Below, one piece after another: positions 1,431-17,100 of a DNA stretch of 38,987 bases (position 1 is the first letter of the stretch; each line of letters begins with the position of its first letter). Under the pieces are notes generated by a model. It worked only from the letters and a program-made list of their open reading frames with translations. It did not search any database and had not been told where the DNA came from. A program made the translations under genes and the position numbers. The DNA comes from Planctomycetota bacterium (GTDB taxonomy: Bacteria; Planctomycetota; Phycisphaerae; Sedimentisphaerales; UBA12454). The stretch spans positions 1 to 38,987 of the forward strand of contig JAKJEQ010000007.1 in the NCBI GenBank assembly GCA_022705345.1. Reading direction: 5' to 3'.

Positions 1431-2432
1431 ATGAAAATGAGAATAAAAACAGAAGTAATATTCGCAATTTTGCTGACATTTTGCTTTTTTGGTTTAAACG
1501 GATGCAATAAGAAGAAACCGAGAGTATATAGAATAGGCATAATAACGGGGACGGCGGCGTATGAAGAAATTGTAAACAGTTTCAAAAATAAAATGAAAGA
1601 GCTGAATTATAGAGAATCGGAAAACATCGAATATGATTTGCATTTAGCAAACAACCACTATGAAGAAGAACAAATTCTTCAAAAATTCGTTTCCGATAAG
1701 GTTGACTTAATATTCGCATTTCCAACCGACCCGGCTATTGCGGCGAAAAAAGCGGCAAGCGGGACGAATATACCGGTAGTATTTACTATGGCCGGGATAG
1801 AAAGCAATGACCTTATAGAAAGCATATTGAAACCGGGCGGAAATATCAGCGGTGTACGTTTTCCAAATACTGAAATAAGCGCAAAGCGTCTTGAAATCCT
1901 TAAGGAACTTATACCCAATGCCAGGCGAGTATATTTGATTTACGATCCTAATTACCCCAATGCCATTGTTGCCCTCGATTGCCTTAACCAATCCGCACCT
2001 GAACTTGGAATAGAACTTGTAAAGGAAACCGTCAATAACCTCAACGATCTTGAGAGAGTATTAAACCAAAGGGGACAACTTGAAGATATCGGAATCGACG
2101 CAATTTTTATTTTGCCGGAACTATTAACTCAGAGTCCAAAAGGTTTTGAAATGATAATGAAATTCGCGAACGAAAAGAAGCTGGCAGTTTGCGGAGCTAT
2201 GCCGTTTACAAGTGAAAATGGAGCCGTCTTTAGTATGGCGCCTGATAGAGCAGAAATGGGCCGGGAGTCGGCTATTATCGTCGATAAAATATTCAACGGC
2301 GTTCCAGCCGGCGAAATCATGGTCGTCACCCCTGGTATACGGTTAATTATAAACTATGATTCAATCAGTAAACTCGGCCTTACAGTTCCTGAAGGTTTAT
2401 TGGATAGAGCCGATATGATAATTGGTCAATAA
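1431..2432 (+). CDS. ABC-type substrate-binding lipoprotein (ABC_sub_bind family), copy 2
   Basis: A 333-residue paralogue of the preceding gene. The signal sequence ends in a canonical lipobox LNGC with Cys25 as the lipidation site, followed by a lysine-rich linker. The PF04392 fold is indicated by the RIGIITG first strand, the DLIFAFPTDPAIAAKKA segment and PGGNISG at about residue 135, at the same place as in copy 1. GAGGG precedes the ATG. Its stop codon overlaps the start of the histidine kinase gene by one base (TAATG), a strong sign of translational coupling, so binding protein and kinase are probably made together. This supports a sensory function in which the binding protein presents a ligand to the kinase's Cache domain, but that is inference; it could equally feed a transporter encoded elsewhere. 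Confidence 0.85.
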   Translation: MKMRIKTEVIFAILLTFCFFGLNGCNKKKPRVYRIGIITGTAAYEEIVNSFKNKMKELNYRESENIEYDLHLANNHYEEEQILQKFVSDKVDLIFAFPTDPAIAAKKAASGTNIPVVFTMAGIESNDLIESILKPGGNISGVRFPNTEISAKRLEILKELIPNARRVYLIYDPNYPNAIVALDCLNQSAPELGIELVKETVNNLNDLERVLNQRGQLEDIGIDAIFILPELLTQSPKGFEMIMKFANEKKLAVCGAMPFTSENGAVFSMAPDRAEMGRESAIIVDKIFNGVPAGEIMVVTPGIRLIINYDSISKLGLTVPEGLLDRADMIIGQ

Positions 2433-4336
2433 TGAACAAGAACAAGAACAAGAAATTTAGAAGCCTGACTTTTTCAGTAGCAGTTGCATTTTTAAGTCTA
2501 AGCGCAACTGTTCTGATTATTGCCAATACCCTACAGATATATTTCAATATCTGCACGCAGCGAGATCTGATCGCAGGACGGCAGAAACTCATTGCCCAGG
2601 AAGCGGCAGATACAGTCAAGGGGTACATTCTGGAAAAATCGGAATTTCTCAAGACAGCGGTAAAGGTAGGCAAACTGATCAACACAGATAAATCTGAACA
2701 GAAACTTGTGATGGAAAAAATACTTGGCTTCAATCAGGCATTTCGCCAAGTAGTATTACTGAATTCAAAACAGCAGCAAATTCTCAGGCAATCTCGTTTA
2801 TCGAATCTTTTATCAGGCCAATTAACCGAGCAGATAAAAAAAAGAGGAGAAGAAATACTTCCTGAAGTATTACAGGGCAAAACTTACATAAGCCCGGTGT
2901 ATTTCGACAGTATTACAAGTGAACCTCTGATAATAATGGGAGTGCCGGTAAAAGACTCTTTGGGCAATTTTCAAATGATCGTGCTCTCCGAAATCAACCT
3001 CAAATTTATGTGGGATATCGTAAATCCAATAAAAGCTGGAGAAAACGGCCGGGCTTATGTCGTGGATTCGCAAGGGGCTCTCATAGCCTTCGGTGACATA
3101 GGCAGAGTTTTAAAAAGAGAAAACCTGCTGCATTTGAAGGAAGTAGCGAAATTTGTATCTGATTCTTGTGCTTACAATGAAGGTAAAATAAAAATGTCCA
3201 AAGGCATAATGGATACATGTGTCGCGACCACTCACGCGCATCTTGGCACACCTAACTGGGCAGTAATGGTCGAGACGCCGATTTATGAAGCATACGCGCC
3301 GATACTGTCATCGCTTAATCTAGCGGCAATAACAATGTTCTCCTGCTTCGGTTTTTCGATAGTGGCCAGTCATTATCTTTCGAAGCGAATTACAAGACCA
3401 ATCATCCACTTGAGGGATGCTGCCGAAAAAATCGGGCAAGGCCAGATGAATACGAAAATAGAACACGAGTCTTTTGATGAAATAGGTCAATTGGCTGAGG
3501 GGTTCAACCAGATGGTTGAGGATCTGCAAAAGACGACTGTTTCGCGAGACGCTCTTATCAAAGAGGTGCACGAACGCAAAAATGCAGAACAGAGTCTCGA
3601 GCAAACGGCCGAAAAGCTCGAACAGGCGAATCAGGAATTGAAGAATTTTGTTTATATCGCATCTCATGATTTAAGGGAGCCTCTGCGGAAAATAACCGCA
3701 TTTGGTCAACTGCTGGAAAAATCGCTTGGCAACAAGCTGGAAGGCGATGATGCAGAAAATCTTAAATTTATGGTCGACGGCGCAGACCGGATGTCGCAGA
3801 TGATTAACGGCTTATTGACCTACTCGAGGGTAAATACACAATCCCAGCCCTTCCAAACTGTTGATCTGAACAAAACAGTAAAAGAGCTTCAGAAATTCGA
3901 ACTTTCAGTTGTACTTGAAGAAAAAAACGCCTGGATAGAAATCCCATCTCCTCTGCCGTGTATCGAAGGTGACCCGGTACACATACGACAGCTCATACAG
4001 AATCTTATCGCAAACGGAATTAAATATCAGAAGAAAGACAGCGTTCCTGAAATTACGATCAGCAGCAAACCTGCCGCTGATAACATGGTGAGAATAGAAG
4101 TATCCGATAACGGAATCGGAATTGTCCCAGAATATCAGAACGCCATATTTACGATGTTCAAAAGGCTGCATACTCGAAGCGAATATGAAGGCACAGGCAT
4201 CGGACTGTCGGTATGTAAAAGAATTGTCGAACGTCATGGGGGACATATCGGTGTCGAATCAATTCCGGGCAAAGGATCAACATTCTGGTTTACAGTCCCC
4301 AGAGCAAAAGAATTAATCATCGCTGAAATATCCTGA
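2432..4336 (+). CDS. Membrane sensor histidine kinase (Cache-HAMP-HisKA-HATPase)
   Basis: A 634-residue inner-membrane kinase. Order of parts: TM1 about residues 13-35; a large periplasmic region to about 290 that reads like a double Cache sensor (segments such as YISPVYFDSITSEPLIIMGV and GRAYVVDSQGALIA); TM2 about 293-313; HAMP about 313-366; a coiled coil; HisKA with the phospho-acceptor His412 in ASHDLREPL; and an HATPase domain with DNGIGI near 559 and GTGIGLSVCKRI. The HisKA sequence is of the phytochrome-like subgroup. There is no receiver domain and no response-regulator gene beside it, so its partner must be encoded elsewhere. The start overlaps the stop of the second binding-protein gene. 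Likely role: autophosphorylation in response to a small ligand sensed in the periplasm, possibly with help from the two binding proteins. Confidence 0.9.
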   Translation: MNKNKNKKFRSLTFSVAVAFLSLSATVLIIANTLQIYFNICTQRDLIAGRQKLIAQEAADTVKGYILEKSEFLKTAVKVGKLINTDKSEQKLVMEKILGFNQAFRQVVLLNSKQQQILRQSRLSNLLSGQLTEQIKKRGEEILPEVLQGKTYISPVYFDSITSEPLIIMGVPVKDSLGNFQMIVLSEINLKFMWDIVNPIKAGENGRAYVVDSQGALIAFGDIGRVLKRENLLHLKEVAKFVSDSCAYNEGKIKMSKGIMDTCVATTHAHLGTPNWAVMVETPIYEAYAPILSSLNLAAITMFSCFGFSIVASHYLSKRITRPIIHLRDAAEKIGQGQMNTKIEHESFDEIGQLAEGFNQMVEDLQKTTVSRDALIKEVHERKNAEQSLEQTAEKLEQANQELKNFVYIASHDLREPLRKITAFGQLLEKSLGNKLEGDDAENLKFMVDGADRMSQMINGLLTYSRVNTQSQPFQTVDLNKTVKELQKFELSVVLEEKNAWIEIPSPLPCIEGDPVHIRQLIQNLIANGIKYQKKDSVPEITISSKPAADNMVRIEVSDNGIGIVPEYQNAIFTMFKRLHTRSEYEGTGIGLSVCKRIVERHGGHIGVESIPGKGSTFWFTVPRAKELIIAEIS

Positions 4337-4365
4337 TTAGTCACATCGCAAATTTTGCCAAAATG

Positions 4366-4388
4366 GCAGTTTTGACTGCATAAACTGC
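4366..4388. promoter_or_regulatory. Inverted repeat, possible activator site upstream of hsp20
   Basis: GCAGTTT and AAACTGC form a perfect 7-bp inverted repeat with a 9-base centre. It lies about 115 bp before the expected start site of the sigma-54-like promoter at 4466, a typical distance for an enhancer-binding-protein site. There is no T-run after it, so it does not look like a terminator for the kinase gene. The role is inferred from position only. Confidence 0.35.
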
Positions 4389-4465
4389 AACCATTCAGCA
4401 AGCATAGCCCCATAAAAATCACGTAATTTCCTGCCTTACTTTGACTTAGAAAAACACGTATAAAC

Positions 4466-4481
4466 TGGCATAGGGTTTGCT
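4466..4481 (+). promoter_or_regulatory. Candidate sigma-54 (-24/-12) promoter for hsp20
   Basis: TGGCATAGGGTTTGCT matches the RpoN consensus (TGGCAC, N5, TTGCW) at all key positions except one C to T change, with the invariant GG and GC separated by exactly 10 bases. Transcription would begin near 4492, giving a leader of about 50 bases before the ATG at 4542. I found no well-spaced sigma-70 promoter in the same gap and no CIRCE element. Whether the host encodes RpoN cannot be seen here. Confidence 0.55.
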
Positions 4482-4541
4482 TTATTTATAAGTGAGAAAG
4501 AAAAGAATTAAAGATTAGAGATTTTTGTAAGGAGTAAAATT

Positions 4542-5042
4542 ATGGCACATGAACATTTTAATCCAATGAAAAGGAAAGGGCAGCAGCTTGCGGCAAGACG
4601 AGAACCGGAAAATCCGTTTTTCGCTCTTCAGCACAGAATGAACCGTATGTTCGATGATTTTCTCGGCGAGCCGTTCGATCTGTTCGGTATCCGGGAGCAG
4701 GCAAACGTCTTTATGCCTCCGATGAACCTGAGCGAAACGGAAAAGGAAATTATCGTAACCGCTGATTTGCCGGGCGTTGAGGAAAAAGACCTCGATATTT
4801 CCGTTACCAAAGACGAGCTGACAATTAAAGGCGAAAAGAAATCCGAATCCGAAGAAAAAGGCAAAGATTTCTACAGGATGGAAAGGTCTTACGGCACTTT
4901 CACCAGGACAATAGCTTTGCCGAAGGGAATCGACGAAAGCAAGATAAACGCCGAACTCAAGAAAGGCGTTTTGAAACTTACGATTCCAAAAACCGCTGAA
5001 GCTGCCGCCGAAAAAAAGAAAATTCAGATCAAAAGTGAATAA
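4542..5042 (+). CDS. Small heat-shock protein, Hsp20/alpha-crystallin family
   Basis: A 166-residue cytoplasmic holdase chaperone that binds unfolding proteins and hands them to ATP-dependent chaperones. The alpha-crystallin domain spans about residues 58-150 and begins with the typical MPPMNLSETEKEIIVTADLPGV. It contains the conserved G-V-L signature (KKGVLKLTIP), and the C-terminal tail carries the I-x-I motif (IQI) used for oligomer assembly. The N-terminal arm of about 55 residues includes a short FFALQHRMNRMFDDF helix common to bacterial members. AAGGAG lies eight bases upstream of the ATG. The gene stands alone: a sigma-54-like promoter precedes it and a strong intrinsic terminator follows. 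Confidence 0.95.
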   Translation: MAHEHFNPMKRKGQQLAARREPENPFFALQHRMNRMFDDFLGEPFDLFGIREQANVFMPPMNLSETEKEIIVTADLPGVEEKDLDISVTKDELTIKGEKKSESEEKGKDFYRMERSYGTFTRTIALPKGIDESKINAELKKGVLKLTIPKTAEAAAEKKKIQIKSE

Positions 5043-5060
5043 AGAAAATTTTCAAATGTT

Positions 5061-5100
5061 AACTGCCGCAAGTCTTAAAAAGGCTTGCGGCAGTTTTTGT
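5061..5100 (+). terminator. Intrinsic terminator after hsp20
   Basis: AACTGCCGCAAG (5061-5072) pairs perfectly with CTTGCGGCAGTT (5084-5095) across an 11-base loop, followed by further T residues. It starts 19 bases after the hsp20 stop codon. Confidence 0.9.
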
Positions 5101-5128
5101 GAATTAACTGAGTGACTGAGCGATTGAG

Positions 5129-12266: not shown

Positions 12267-13082
12267 ATGTCAAAAATAGGCGGAAATATACGAAATTATT
12301 TTGTTTCACAAATTTACGGCGATATCCCCGGTCTCTACATCTCATCTTGCGGGCACTGGAATGTCACTGACCATATTCTCGAAAACAGAACTCGCAGCGA
12401 TTACCTGATAATATATTGCGTAAATGGAAGGGGGACCTATACAGAAGGTAAAAAAGAGTACACCATAAAAAAAGGAATGATATTTGCCGCGTATCCCGAT
12501 ATTGTTCACAGCTATTGGTGCGGCGAACAGGGATGGGAAATCTGGTACTGCCATTTTGCGGGCGATATCGCGGGAAAGCTGCTTCAATGGGCGGGATTTA
12601 ATGTTATGTCGCCGATTATTCAGATTGGGATTAAAAAAACGCTGCTGAAAACATTCGGGGAAATCATAACGGCAACTGTCGAAAAAAAAATAAATTGCGA
12701 AATAGATACTTCCTGGCTGCTTTACAAATTGCTTTTACAGCTTAAGGGATGCAGGATTTCGAGTGAAACGAAAGGCCATTTTTTGCAGCGGGTTCTTGAA
12801 TGCCGGGCGGAAAACATCGATGAAATGGCAAAATGCGCAGGAATGTCGAAATATCATTTTATCAGGGTATTTAAAAAAAATATCGGCATTACGCCGTGGC
12901 AGTATATTATGCAGCGAAAAATCACAAACGCAAAGGAACTGCTGCACAATCCCAATAAAACAATAAAGCAAATCGCATACGAGACCGGCTTCAAAGACCC
13001 GGATTATTTTTCGACAACGTTTAAAAAAATCACGGGGCTCAGGCCGGGAGATTTTAGAAATACTTTGGATTATTCCAAATAA
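12267..13082 (+). CDS. AraC family transcriptional regulator
   Basis: A 271-residue regulator. Residues about 20-110 form a cupin-type ligand-sensing domain (YCVNGRGTYTEGKKEYTIKKG followed by the H/W-rich YPDIVHSYWCG strand). Residues about 165-268 contain the double helix-turn-helix, with AKCAGMSKYHFIRVFKKNIGI for the first and IKQIAYETGFKDPDYFSTTFKK for the second, the canonical AraC signature. It is divergent from the URO-D gene and so is its likely regulator; now that the target is interrupted, the regulator may be without a job. The ATG at 12267 lacks a clear Shine-Dalgarno sequence. The last 13 bases overlap the 3' end of the convergent UDP-sugar pyrophosphorylase gene. Confidence 0.92.
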   Translation: MSKIGGNIRNYFVSQIYGDIPGLYISSCGHWNVTDHILENRTRSDYLIIYCVNGRGTYTEGKKEYTIKKGMIFAAYPDIVHSYWCGEQGWEIWYCHFAGDIAGKLLQWAGFNVMSPIIQIGIKKTLLKTFGEIITATVEKKINCEIDTSWLLYKLLLQLKGCRISSETKGHFLQRVLECRAENIDEMAKCAGMSKYHFIRVFKKNIGITPWQYIMQRKITNAKELLHNPNKTIKQIAYETGFKDPDYFSTTFKKITGLRPGDFRNTLDYSK

Positions 13083-14494
13083 AGTTTTTGGCCTGGTTCA
13101 ATTTTCAGGTTTAAATATTTGGCTGCAATGTCTTCTGCGCTTAAGGCGAATAAAGACGAGATTTCAATTTCACAATCTATTGAACCGTCAGCCTTTTTGG
13201 GCACTTTTATTCCTGCGGTTTCAATCCATTTGGCAGCTCGCCGGGTCATCATTCGCTTTGTAACCGCGGGACTGTCTGCGCCATCTGCGTTTTTTACCGG
13301 CGCAAATTCTTCGCTTCGGATTGTCTCGAGAATTATCGATTCTTTCGCAAGAGGCAGAGCGTCGAAAACAAAAGTTTCGAGCTTAATGCCGTTTGGTTTT
13401 TCAGGTTTGACAATTTTGCCGCTTGTTGTATCGACGAAGGGAATTTTTTTGACCGCCTTGTGGTACGGCAGAGCGAAACCCCTGGCGTTCAATCTTTCGA
13501 CGAATGTTCTGCTGATAATGTGAATCGCGATGCTGCCGAGCGCAAACACAAGCGAACCGTCGGGATTTTTTCTGTAAGCCAGCTCATCGGGCAAATCGCT
13601 GTATTCAATCACTGTAACTTTTCCGTCAGCGAGGCAGAAATTTCCGACTTTTTCGAGCGGCTCGCATTTGGTCAGGTATTTCGATGACATTTCAGCATTA
13701 TCAATCGCGTGGAGACCGATAAAGATCGGGTCGAAAATATTTATCAGCGGGTTATCAACCTGGAAATAACTAATGTGTTCTATTCCGATTTTTTTCATCT
13801 GCTCAATTGCGCCGCTTTTGTAGAGCGCTTTTAAACTTCCGCCGTGGCCATCGGGCGATGTGGCGAGGGTATCCTTATCGGCAAGAAGAATTTTGCCGTC
13901 CATCGAATAATTTACTTCCGTTCCCTGCTGGAAGAAGAAAATATTTTGCTCCCTGAGGCCGTAGAAATTATTCGATTTGAAAATTTGCCGCGTCGGTTCA
14001 TCGTTTAGCGGACTTGTCATTATGTACCAGTGAGGCTGGAAACCATATTTTTGGCCGGCGGCTTTTATGCCTTCGGCAAAAATCTGGAACAGAGATTTAT
14101 TCTTAATCGGAGATATTCTGTAATCGCCTTTTGGGCCGTCGAAGCCAAGCCTTGTGCCCTGCCCGCCTGCGACTACGAAGGCCGCGACTTTGCCTTGCGA
14201 CAGAAGCAGTTCGCCAAGCTTTTTCGCTTTTGTGAATTTTTCTTTATGTTCCGGCGTCTGCGGTATCGCAGGATAAACGGGAGCGGGTTCTATTTTGGAA
14301 GGAAGTTTTGTCGGGGCGGGATTTTTGACATATTCCTGAATCTTTGAATCAAGCGAATCGAAATCAATTTGCTCAATCTGTTCGAGAAGTTTTTCTTTCG
14401 AGCTTTCGTCAAGCTCATTCCAGAATGTCAAAAGATGCTGCTGATTATGTTTTGCTAAAGTCTGTAATGTCTTTTCATAGTTTTTCGTAATCAT
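13070..14494 (-). CDS. UDP-N-acetylhexosamine pyrophosphorylase-like (UDPGP type 1 / UAP1-like)
   Basis: A 474-residue nucleotidyltransferase that should make a UDP-sugar from UTP and a hexose-1-phosphate, probably GlcNAc-1-P or GalNAc-1-P. The signature loop V-A-G-G-Q-G-T-R-L-G lies at residues 108-117, with P121-K122-G following, then KSLFQIFAEGI. This arrangement, preceded by an N-terminal helical domain of about 100 residues, is that of eukaryotic UAP1 and its bacterial relatives, not of GlmU or GalU. Other supporting segments are YIMTSPLNDEPT, QVDNPL and GNFCLADGKVTVIEYSDLP. Substrate preference cannot be read with certainty. The start ATG at 14494 has no clear ribosome-binding site. It converges on and slightly overlaps araC. 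Confidence 0.87.
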   Translation of the reverse strand: MITKNYEKTLQTLAKHNQQHLLTFWNELDESSKEKLLEQIEQIDFDSLDSKIQEYVKNPAPTKLPSKIEPAPVYPAIPQTPEHKEKFTKAKKLGELLLSQGKVAAFVVAGGQGTRLGFDGPKGDYRISPIKNKSLFQIFAEGIKAAGQKYGFQPHWYIMTSPLNDEPTRQIFKSNNFYGLREQNIFFFQQGTEVNYSMDGKILLADKDTLATSPDGHGGSLKALYKSGAIEQMKKIGIEHISYFQVDNPLINIFDPIFIGLHAIDNAEMSSKYLTKCEPLEKVGNFCLADGKVTVIEYSDLPDELAYRKNPDGSLVFALGSIAIHIISRTFVERLNARGFALPYHKAVKKIPFVDTTSGKIVKPEKPNGIKLETFVFDALPLAKESIILETIRSEEFAPVKNADGADSPAVTKRMMTRRAAKWIETAGIKVPKKADGSIDCEIEISSLFALSAEDIAAKYLNLKIEPGQKLYLE

Positions 14495-14588: not shown

Positions 14589-14651
14589 ACAAAAACGGTG
14601 CCAGGAGTCGTTTTTTTTATTTACAAAAACGGTGCCAGGAGTCGTTTTTTT
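14589..14651. repeat. Two-copy 34-base tandem repeat with terminator-like shape
   Basis: CGGTGCCAGGAGTCG flanked by A5 and T7-8 occurs at about 14589-14618 and again, identical, at about 14623-14651. In each unit AAAAACG and CGTTTTT can pair around an 11-base loop. The second copy reaches the stop codon of the upstream gene on the minus strand, so on that strand the pair sits exactly where a terminator for the 816-residue gene would be. The stem has few GC pairs, so termination is uncertain. Confidence 0.75.
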
Positions 14652-17100
14652 ATGCCGATGGTTTTCGATTTTTGGAGCAGAAATCGCCCATAAGCTGCAT
14701 CGCGACATTCAGTTTTTCGCTTGAGCCGTCAAGATCGGCATACGCCTCGACAAGCTTGACCAAATCCGGGTCAGCAGGACTGTTGCCAAGATGATGAGCG
14801 GCGTTTACGATACCTGCATCGAGTCCATATCTCATCGCCACCTCGACATAAGCTCTTGTTACGCCGATTTTACGCGCGGGCAAATCACGGACGCTGTTAG
14901 TTACGCCGAGTGAGAAATGACAATTCTTCAGCAGCGGATCCGTTTTGATTCGCTTGATTGTATTAAATGTTCGATATGTGTATCCGGGAACGCCGGGCTG
15001 CATCGGCATATCAATCGCAAGCGGGAACACTGTGGAATCGAAGAAAATTTCTTCGGCCTTGAAACCGTGTTTCATCGCGGCATCATAAAGGGTTTTAGCC
15101 AGATTATACAAATCATCGACAGTGTCGGTGGCTGCTTTTGCCTCGCTGATGAGCAGGCCGATGAATTTAAAATCATAGTGTTTTTTCAGGGGCATCATAT
15201 TATCCATCGTGTAAACCTTAATGGAGTTGACCAGCGGCGGCTGAACTTTCTCGCTGGTATCATACCATTCTTTAAGGCCTGCAATCAGAACATTATCGTC
15301 GCTGCTGTCAACGCAAACCGGAACGCCCCTGCCGAACTTTCGGACGAGCTTTACATATTCCTTCATAAGTTTGACCGCAAGAGCCGGGTCGGTTTCTCCG
15401 AACTGGTCGATGTTGACTGCAATATAATCTGCGCCGTCAGCGGCCTGCGATTCGATCAGGGCTAATATGTATTGCAGTTCAGGGCTGTCTTTGCTGAAAC
15501 AATCGTCGCCGAGTTCGAGAAGCTGTTTCATAACCATGCCTGTTTTCGGAATCGAAGCGTGAATTGCTTCGCCAATGTTAAAGATCGCGTTTTTCATTGT
15601 ATGGTCCCTGCCAAAAAGATAATTCGGTATAGAAGCCGAATGCTCGAGAGCGGGAATGCGGGGCTTGTTAATTGTTTTGCGCAATTTTTCAATTCCGCCC
15701 TTTTCGCTTCCGGCCGCTTTGTAGATTCTATCTCCGATACAGATTCTGTCGAGATTATTTCCGCATTTTCCATCGGCAGTCGAGTCGCCGCAGGGAGCGT
15801 TGTCCATTCCTTTTTCGCAGCCGCCGATTGTGCAAAGGCCGAAATTCTCGGGCAGATAGCAATCGCCGCACTCTTCGCAATCGAACAGGCAGTATTTCAT
15901 CGGTTTTTCGAGCATAAAGAAGCTTTTGTAGAAAAAGCCCTTGTTTTTATCCACGCCGAAAAACTTCATTACTTTTTTGAAAGCGTGAAAACCTTTGTGC
16001 TCGGGGTCAAGAATTGACCAGTGCATAAAGTTAAAGAATCGATGAGCGTTTGTTTTTGGATAATCAGAAAGTCTTGTCTTATTTCCCGCATCATCATACA
16101 GATAGAATGGCCTTCTTGCGGGCCAGCAAAGATTATCTTTGTACTTTTCCCAATCGCTGCCGATTTCGGCCGCTCGTTTGAGAATCTTTATGAACATTTC
16201 GTAATCGTGAACGCCGCCGACATCTGCGCCTGCGGCACCGATAGATTTGTACATCGCGATTTGCTGGGCGGCTCGTTCGATATGTTCATTGAGTGATTCG
16301 GAATAAACTTTGGCAAGCAGTTCATCACTGACAAAACAGCCGGGCAGTTTTATATCGTGCATCAAACGAGGAGCGGGTGTGATTGTGCTTAGAAGGTAAA
16401 CATTTCCGAGCACGGGCACATTAATATTATTCTCTTTAAGATAGCGCATCAGCTCTACCGACTTTTTCCAGTCCCAGCCGACCTGGGTAATCAGGAATTT
16501 TGCGCCGCGGGCAACTTTTTTCTCCATTTTAAAATACTGCTGCATCTGTGATTCTTCATTATATTTGAAGGGGGAAACAGCGGCGCCCGCGTAAAACAGC
16601 TTTGCGGCGGCGAGATTTTCCGGCTTTGCCGAAAGATAGGCATCATTATTGATGCGGCTAATTTTATCGAGCAGGCCGATGGATTCCAATTCGAACACGC
16701 CTTTGGATACTGCCGGTTTGTCGCCGGTCAGAGCAAGAACGCTTTCGACTCCGGCCGCGCGATGTGCGGCAAGAAGGCTTGTCAACGCGTCGGCGTTCAA
16801 ATCCTTGCAGCTTATGTGAGGAATAAAATCGAGATCGCCGAGCAGATTTTTGCTAACGAGGAAGCGATGAACATCAGAAGGTTCGATGTTCGCGACCCCG
16901 CCGGGACTTTGGGGATTTGTAATGCCGACAAAATTAAAGCCTGCCGGGATGTCTTTTCCGCCTCCGGCGTTAAACGCCGTTAGAAATTTTTGGATCGGAG
17001 CGAAACTAAAATTCGGGCCGCCTACAAGCTCTGCCACAATGGCAAAACCATCTCTATTTTTTAATGCCTTACTTAATCTTTTTTTTGCCGGTGTTTGCAT
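14650..17100 (-). CDS. Methylenetetrahydrofolate reductase fused to MTHFR_C domain and pterin-binding methyltransferase-like domain
   Basis: An 816-residue three-part C1 protein. Residues about 1-300 are a MetF-type TIM barrel (5,10-methylene-THF reduction), with an expected FAD and folate site (VLALTGD segment). Residues about 370-480 are a cysteine-rich MTHFR_C domain starting with CLFDCEECGDC near residue 402, as in MetV, the zinc-containing partner of MetF in acetogens. Residues about 505-816 resemble a pterin-binding methyltransferase barrel (AcsE/MetH-like), with SDSS/VDSSD, NSIKVY, FSLGVTNSVRDLPARK and a LDAGIVNAAH strand. Together these are consecutive steps: methylene-THF to methyl-THF, then methyl transfer to a corrinoid protein. 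Start at the ATG 17100 with AAGGA upstream. Whether it serves methionine synthesis or a Wood-Ljungdahl-like branch cannot be told here. Confidence 0.85.
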   Translation of the reverse strand: MQTPAKKRLSKALKNRDGFAIVAELVGGPNFSFAPIQKFLTAFNAGGGKDIPAGFNFVGITNPQSPGGVANIEPSDVHRFLVSKNLLGDLDFIPHISCKDLNADALTSLLAAHRAAGVESVLALTGDKPAVSKGVFELESIGLLDKISRINNDAYLSAKPENLAAAKLFYAGAAVSPFKYNEESQMQQYFKMEKKVARGAKFLITQVGWDWKKSVELMRYLKENNINVPVLGNVYLLSTITPAPRLMHDIKLPGCFVSDELLAKVYSESLNEHIERAAQQIAMYKSIGAAGADVGGVHDYEMFIKILKRAAEIGSDWEKYKDNLCWPARRPFYLYDDAGNKTRLSDYPKTNAHRFFNFMHWSILDPEHKGFHAFKKVMKFFGVDKNKGFFYKSFFMLEKPMKYCLFDCEECGDCYLPENFGLCTIGGCEKGMDNAPCGDSTADGKCGNNLDRICIGDRIYKAAGSEKGGIEKLRKTINKPRIPALEHSASIPNYLFGRDHTMKNAIFNIGEAIHASIPKTGMVMKQLLELGDDCFSKDSPELQYILALIESQAADGADYIAVNIDQFGETDPALAVKLMKEYVKLVRKFGRGVPVCVDSSDDNVLIAGLKEWYDTSEKVQPPLVNSIKVYTMDNMMPLKKHYDFKFIGLLISEAKAATDTVDDLYNLAKTLYDAAMKHGFKAEEIFFDSTVFPLAIDMPMQPGVPGYTYRTFNTIKRIKTDPLLKNCHFSLGVTNSVRDLPARKIGVTRAYVEVAMRYGLDAGIVNAAHHLGNSPADPDLVKLVEAYADLDGSSEKLNVAMQLMGDFCSKNRKPSA

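Follow-up and report, generated by a model that had tools for sequence, protein, structure and literature searches.

How is the small heat-shock gene hsp20 of this planctomycete switched on? The textbook bacterial heat-shock systems are sigma-32, HrcA/CIRCE, HspR and CtsR. The gene lies in a window of 38,987 nucleotides, the whole stretch of DNA analysed here, which is contig C208 of a genome (G000) of 2.1 Mb and 83% completeness, placed in the Planctomycetota, Phycisphaerae, Sedimentisphaerales. Its closest named hsp20 relatives are in the MAGs Planctomycetes bacterium GWF2_41_51 and GWF2_42_9 and in one Sedimentisphaerales MAG. A sensor histidine kinase gene (2432-4336) lies upstream in the same orientation, and the original prediction placed in front of hsp20 a sigma-54 promoter preceded by an inverted repeat that might bind an enhancer-binding protein (Table 1).

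The predicted GG-N10-GC spacing is borne out: TGGCATAGGGTTTGCT, at 4466-4481, has GG, ten bases and then GC, and its -24/-12 elements resemble TGGCACG-N4-TTGC, with a predicted transcription start at about 4491-4493. Taken on its own within the 39-kb window, such a match is not significant, since 0.28 matches are expected by chance and 22 of 100 shuffles contained at least one. The comparison with relatives is more telling. Of 30 order members, 27 have TGGCAY-N5-TTGY no more than 420 bp upstream of hsp20, whereas the pattern precedes a single one of the 75 hsp20 genes taken from other phyla and turns up in 0.07% of hsp20 upstream regions after shuffling; in the three other order members (L018, L025 and L029) the promoter was not found before the hsp20 detected. 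Among relatives in the genus TGGCAYRGRGTTTGCTTT is identical or nearly so, and the -24/-12 region is among the best-kept stretches of the hsp20 upstream alignment. It is because of this conservation across the order, and not from the single match, that we judge the sigma-54 promoter to be real and conserved.

Table 1. Positions in the window of hsp20 and of the elements proposed to control it.
Feature	Sequence or size	Position	Strand	Basis
Enhancer site 1 (putative)	TGCCAAAATGGCA	4356..4368	+	Perfect TGCCA-N3-TGGCA palindrome; conserved in genus and order
Inverted repeat	GCAGTTT-N9-AAACTGC	4366..4388	+	Sole match in the window (0 expected); overlaps enhancer sites 1 and 2
Enhancer site 2 (putative, weaker)	TGCATAAACTGCA	4377..4389	+	TGCA-N5-TGCA; kept in 3/3 genus members
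-24/-12 promoter	TGGCATAGGGTTTGC	4466..4480	+	GG at 4467-4468, GC at 4479-4480; conserved in order and genus
Ribosome-binding site	AAGGAG	4529..4534	+	AAGGAGT invariant in genus alignment
hsp20 (small heat-shock protein)	166 aa	4542..5042	+	ORF; PF00011, 93 bits, E 1.3e-26

The inverted repeat is present as described, but conservation in relatives separates it from the promoter: its left arm, GCAGTTT, is kept in the genus, whereas the right arm, AAACTGC, reads AATTTGC or ATACTGC in the two closest relatives, so that the repeat itself is a poor choice of enhancer. Conserved instead, and overlapping it, is the palindrome TGYCAAAATGGCA at 4356-4368, 110 bp before the -24 box; TGYCANNNTGRCA has two matches in the window against 0.10 expected. 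This palindrome stands in tandem with the second site, 21 bp apart (two helical turns), and on this basis the idea of an upstream enhancer before the hsp20 promoter stands, at sites other than the repeat first proposed. In the order as a whole the hsp20 enhancer takes the form TGYCA-N3-TGRCA or nearly so and mostly lies 76-114 bp ahead of the -24 box; a further site often follows at a spacing of 20-23 or 32-33 bp, roughly two or three helical turns. In the interval from enhancer to promoter, IHF-like sites numbered five perfect matches against 0.46 expected, and 19 against 7.7 when at most one mismatch was allowed, which is no more than suggestive. The other TGCCA-N3-TGGCA palindrome of the window, TGCCACAATGGCA at 17032-17044, lies inside a minus-strand coding ORF (14650-17100) and is probably there by chance.

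The same combination of elements was sought genome by genome with a pattern blind to gene content, comprising TGYCA-N3-TGRCA, a spacer and a -24/-12 promoter. Chaperone genes (dnaK, groES, groEL, clpB or hsp20), named by eye from conserved sequence rather than by family scan, lie downstream of 61 of the 65 distinct sites inspected, and a reversed control pattern gave zero matches in scans of 17, 59 and 392 genomes. Outside the order 19 of 20 sites fit the chaperone-gene pattern, and the arrangement is therefore phylum-wide. At least 35 of the 392 genomes in the phylum bear the motif in a strict scan, which is a lower bound because such a scan misses degenerate copies. Membership of the regulon in G000 rests on these pattern searches, which place sites before hsp20, before dnaK (C219:14535-14629, minus strand) and before clpB (C55:13647), the last of these, CGGCACATACTTTGC, having C instead of T as the first -24 base (one mismatch). 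The original prediction had tied Hsp20 by itself to envelope or other stress; palindrome and promoter precede dnaK, groES, groEL and clpB across the phylum as well, which points away from an Hsp20-only link to envelope stress and towards a general protein-folding (heat-shock) regulon, to which hsp20, judging from these shared elements, very probably belongs. The four sites without a chaperone gene are at L174, L182, L206 and L300. That at L174 (G015) precedes small HTH-like ORFs and that at L182 (G018) a 68-aa ORF, while at L300:1440-1565 (minus strand, G172) palindromes and a sigma-54 promoter precede the gene of a free-standing receiver-domain protein of 138 aa, which may provide feedback within the regulon.

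The more usual forms of control leave few traces. In line with the original note, neither CIRCE nor a sigma-70 promoter was found: an exact CIRCE occurs at one of 391 loci, L106 (SAR324), which is outside the phylum, and at none of the own-genome loci, and a consensus scan of 4300-5110 gave no sigma-70-type promoter. HrcA was found in one of 59 order genomes, in none of the 41 good ones and not in G000. The sole HrcA (L187, G008:C24:1463-2122) belongs to a genome in which groES and dnaK also have the sigma-54 motif in front of them. At about 4409 stands CCCCATAAA, which looks like the -10 box of a sigma-32 promoter and recurs in one relative, but the other relative has GCACATAAA at this place and no CTTGAA-like -35 was found at the right distance; with CIRCE and HrcA missing too, hsp20 is very unlikely to depend on the controls found in most bacteria, a sigma-32-like promoter or HrcA/CIRCE. 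Together with the shared promoter and palindrome, this suggests that the chaperone genes are turned on by an activator powered by ATP rather than through a textbook heat-shock sigma factor or the HrcA repressor.

The palindrome might also be read without any activator. The kinase gene ends at 4336, a terminator scan detects a stem of six pairs with T after it at 4355-4369, and a chance -24/-12 match is not rare in the window, so that TGCCAAAATGGCAG-TTTT could be taken for the intrinsic terminator of that gene and the promoter for an accident. Against this, the palindrome recurs in many genomes at a set distance before the dnaK, groE and clpB promoters, often without a T run, and the hsp20 promoter is conserved in 27 of 30 order members; as a full explanation the terminator is already refuted and scarcely credible, though the palindrome could double as one at hsp20. 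It is also unlikely, if less so, that the palindrome serves a repressor or general transcription factor and that only the promoter belongs to sigma-54. Dimeric regulators commonly use palindromes of such size, but the sites lie 64-116 bp before the -24 box, single or in tandem and without overlapping the promoter, which is the geometry of an enhancer, and sigma-54 promoters require an activator anyway.

Such promoters are silent until an upstream-bound AAA+ activator remodels the closed complex. G000 has an intact, full-length rpoN (a 483-aa ORF with the RpoN box ARRTVAKYRK) and five enhancer-binding proteins, and the dependence on such a protein that had been proposed for hsp20 finds its promoter, its upstream site and its candidate regulators in one genome. 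Of the conditions named beforehand as refuting the idea, neither a missing rpoN nor the disappearance of both elements from close relatives was observed. Comparative genomics shows, at the level of sequence, the promoter, the palindrome, their joint conservation, the membership of a regulon, rpoN and the scarcity of HrcA. We propose that RNA polymerase with sigma-54 would transcribe hsp20 from the -24/-12 promoter at 4466-4480, and that an enhancer-binding AAA+ activator would occupy the two sites in tandem (4356-4368 and 4377-4389) and spend ATP on opening the promoter once the DNA has looped. One activator would also serve dnaK, groES/groEL and clpB, forming a Planctomycetota sigma-54 protein-folding stress regulon that operates in an order which has almost entirely lost HrcA. 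We hold this explanation as a whole, with sigma-54 promoter, tandem-site activator and shared chaperone regulon, to be highly likely, and we infer that the activator binds the palindrome and responds to heat or misfolded protein.

A candidate for the activator was chosen by elimination, after grouping the enhancer-binding proteins of seven genus members. Only the groups g1, g2 and g3 occur in all seven. The g2 protein, with a GAF domain and an HTH that is NifA-like by eye, adjoins nitrogen genes (named by eye as porin and ammonium transporter genes, or a type III glutamine synthetase gene), and the sigma-54 promoters nearby have a palindrome of another kind, TATACATTTTTGTATA. At the g2 loci L165, L117, L132, L123, L138 and L142 the TATACATTTTTGTATA promoter stands before a porin-like, sometimes an ammonium-transporter-like, gene. 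Among the enhancer-binding proteins of the motif-bearing single-contig genome G014 g3 is absent; the PspF-like g4 is missing from 13 motif-bearing genomes, including the single-contig G019, G023 and G033; and g7, a group of about 445 aa, was not found in G002-G006. No activator tracks the presence of hsp20 within the genus, because members without the gene retain the motif. Autoregulation gave no lead either, as no palindrome was present at the bEBP loci of the genus or at the g1 loci of the phylum.

The best candidate is g1, an NtrC-family response regulator, which, by this elimination, we favour by a modest balance of probability. In G000 its gene (C88:9749-11101) lies beside pnp, as it does near pnp in most genomes of the order, and in this genus it directly follows a gene for a soluble histidine kinase. 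The protein resembles NtrC and NtrC1 in having a receiver, an AAA+ domain (GAFTGA/GSFTGA) and a Fis-type HTH, here with IGERTLYRK, and the closest solved structure to its DNA-binding domain is that of Aquifex NtrC1 (4l5e, E 7e-8); it differs in that its proposed targets are chaperone genes, not nitrogen genes. The palindrome, as a two-fold site with a 3-bp centre, is likewise NtrC-like. Every order genome examined contains g1, as do 27 of the 35 motif-bearing genomes of the phylum at the threshold used. It was not found in the other eight, and in the four of these in which bEBPs were read the IGERTLYRK HTH is present in G184 and G376 and not among the bEBPs read in G123 and G195; most of the motif-bearing genomes read out outside the order have it.

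The promoter and regulon could nonetheless be real and the activator another bEBP, such as g4, or several lineage-specific ones, and this is quite possible, although we lean against it. The g4 protein has no sensor domain, and its gene is immediately upstream of ftsH and co-oriented with it (L116:1585-2571 and L127:1562-2548, both minus strand), an arrangement that is conserved in much of the order and attractive for stress control, and the protein looked ideal at first because this neighbour recalls FtsH and sigma-32. Moreover, g1 occurs in lineages that gave no motif match, such as Brocadiaceae-like genomes (f53). What speaks against g4 is its absence from those 13 motif-bearing genomes, and what speaks against a change of activator is that the palindrome hardly varies between the order and the phylum at large, a sign of a single conserved DNA-binding domain. 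Different lineages could even so use different activators.

If g1 is the regulator, its receiver domain bears on how it might be controlled. Where the soluble kinase gene is its neighbour, the receiver keeps the acidic pair, the phospho-acceptor Asp, the Thr and the Lys (G000-G006, G018, G034 and G037; in G015 the first D is replaced by E). In genomes without the kinase gene these residues are changed (G007, G008, G013, G014, G017, G019, G023, G027 and G036), or, in G033, changed only at the Thr; the receivers of G019, G023 and G027, which trimming reduced to dashes in the alignment table, read VDEN, VDEK and VDNT in the sequences themselves. Loci with a decayed g1 receiver are L253, L263, L267, L272, L276, L287, L326 and L327. 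This decay in kinase-less lineages, a further difference from NtrC and NtrC1, implies that a regulatory g1 would work without phosphorylation there. Put together, the ancestral heat-shock response of the Planctomycetota may have consisted of sigma-54 and one NtrC1-like activator at TGCCA-N3-TGGCA, with the kinase lost and the receiver decayed in several lineages of the order, the target sites kept, and the activator sensing folding stress directly, for example through its release from a chaperone. This joint account is tentative and, taken in full, doubtful.

Compared with HrcA-CIRCE and sigma-32, the proposed regulon has the same target genes but would rely on activation by sigma-54 and an enhancer, not on derepression or a dedicated sigma-70-type factor. 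In E. coli the use of sigma-54 concerns, to our knowledge, one small heat-shock gene only, beside sigma-32, and we know of no conserved enhancer regulon there. That gene, ibpB, is transcribed with sigma-54 according to work cited in PMC4370416. A parallel is offered by Chlamydia, a relative in the PVC group, whose chaperone operon has tandem sigma-66 and sigma-54 promoters and an NtrC-type activator, AtoC, beside HrcA (PMC8762339). Chlamydia keeps HrcA/CIRCE and the second promoter, whereas the order studied here is almost without HrcA and its regulon also takes in groE, clpB and hsp20. Within the Planctomycetota and Bacteroidota, a 2025 in silico survey found predicted sigma-54 promoters enriched at chaperone genes, its predictions for the Planctomycetota covering GroEL, GroES, GrpE, DnaJ, DnaK and IbpA-type proteins, mostly in Planctomycetia and less often in Phycisphaerae (PMC12316311). 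In the passages of that survey consulted here no enhancer or activator is assigned; here there is a common palindrome, found in Phycisphaerae too, and a candidate activator. No description of the palindrome or of its activator was found in the literature searched, mainly open-access papers, so that while the sigma-54 enrichment of the phylum's chaperone genes was already predicted, the novelty appears to lie in the common enhancer and the candidate activator. A chaperone regulon run by sigma-54 and an enhancer ATPase would, if true, be off without its activator, gated by ATP and tunable through tandem enhancers. It would also explain why, in another member of the phylum, Rhodopirellula baltica, heat induces these chaperone genes while rpoH, rpoE and rpoN are not regulated (PMC2754498). 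The proposal can be tested on a precisely defined site and a specific candidate protein.

Elsewhere in the window, at 14589-14637 on the minus strand and between two minus-strand genes, two copies of TGGCACCGTTTTTGT lie 34 bp apart (a tandem repeat of about 34 bp), preceding a 474-aa ORF (13070-14494) that is UDP-sugar pyrophosphorylase-like. Both fit the sigma-54 pattern, although they have the look of a duplication.
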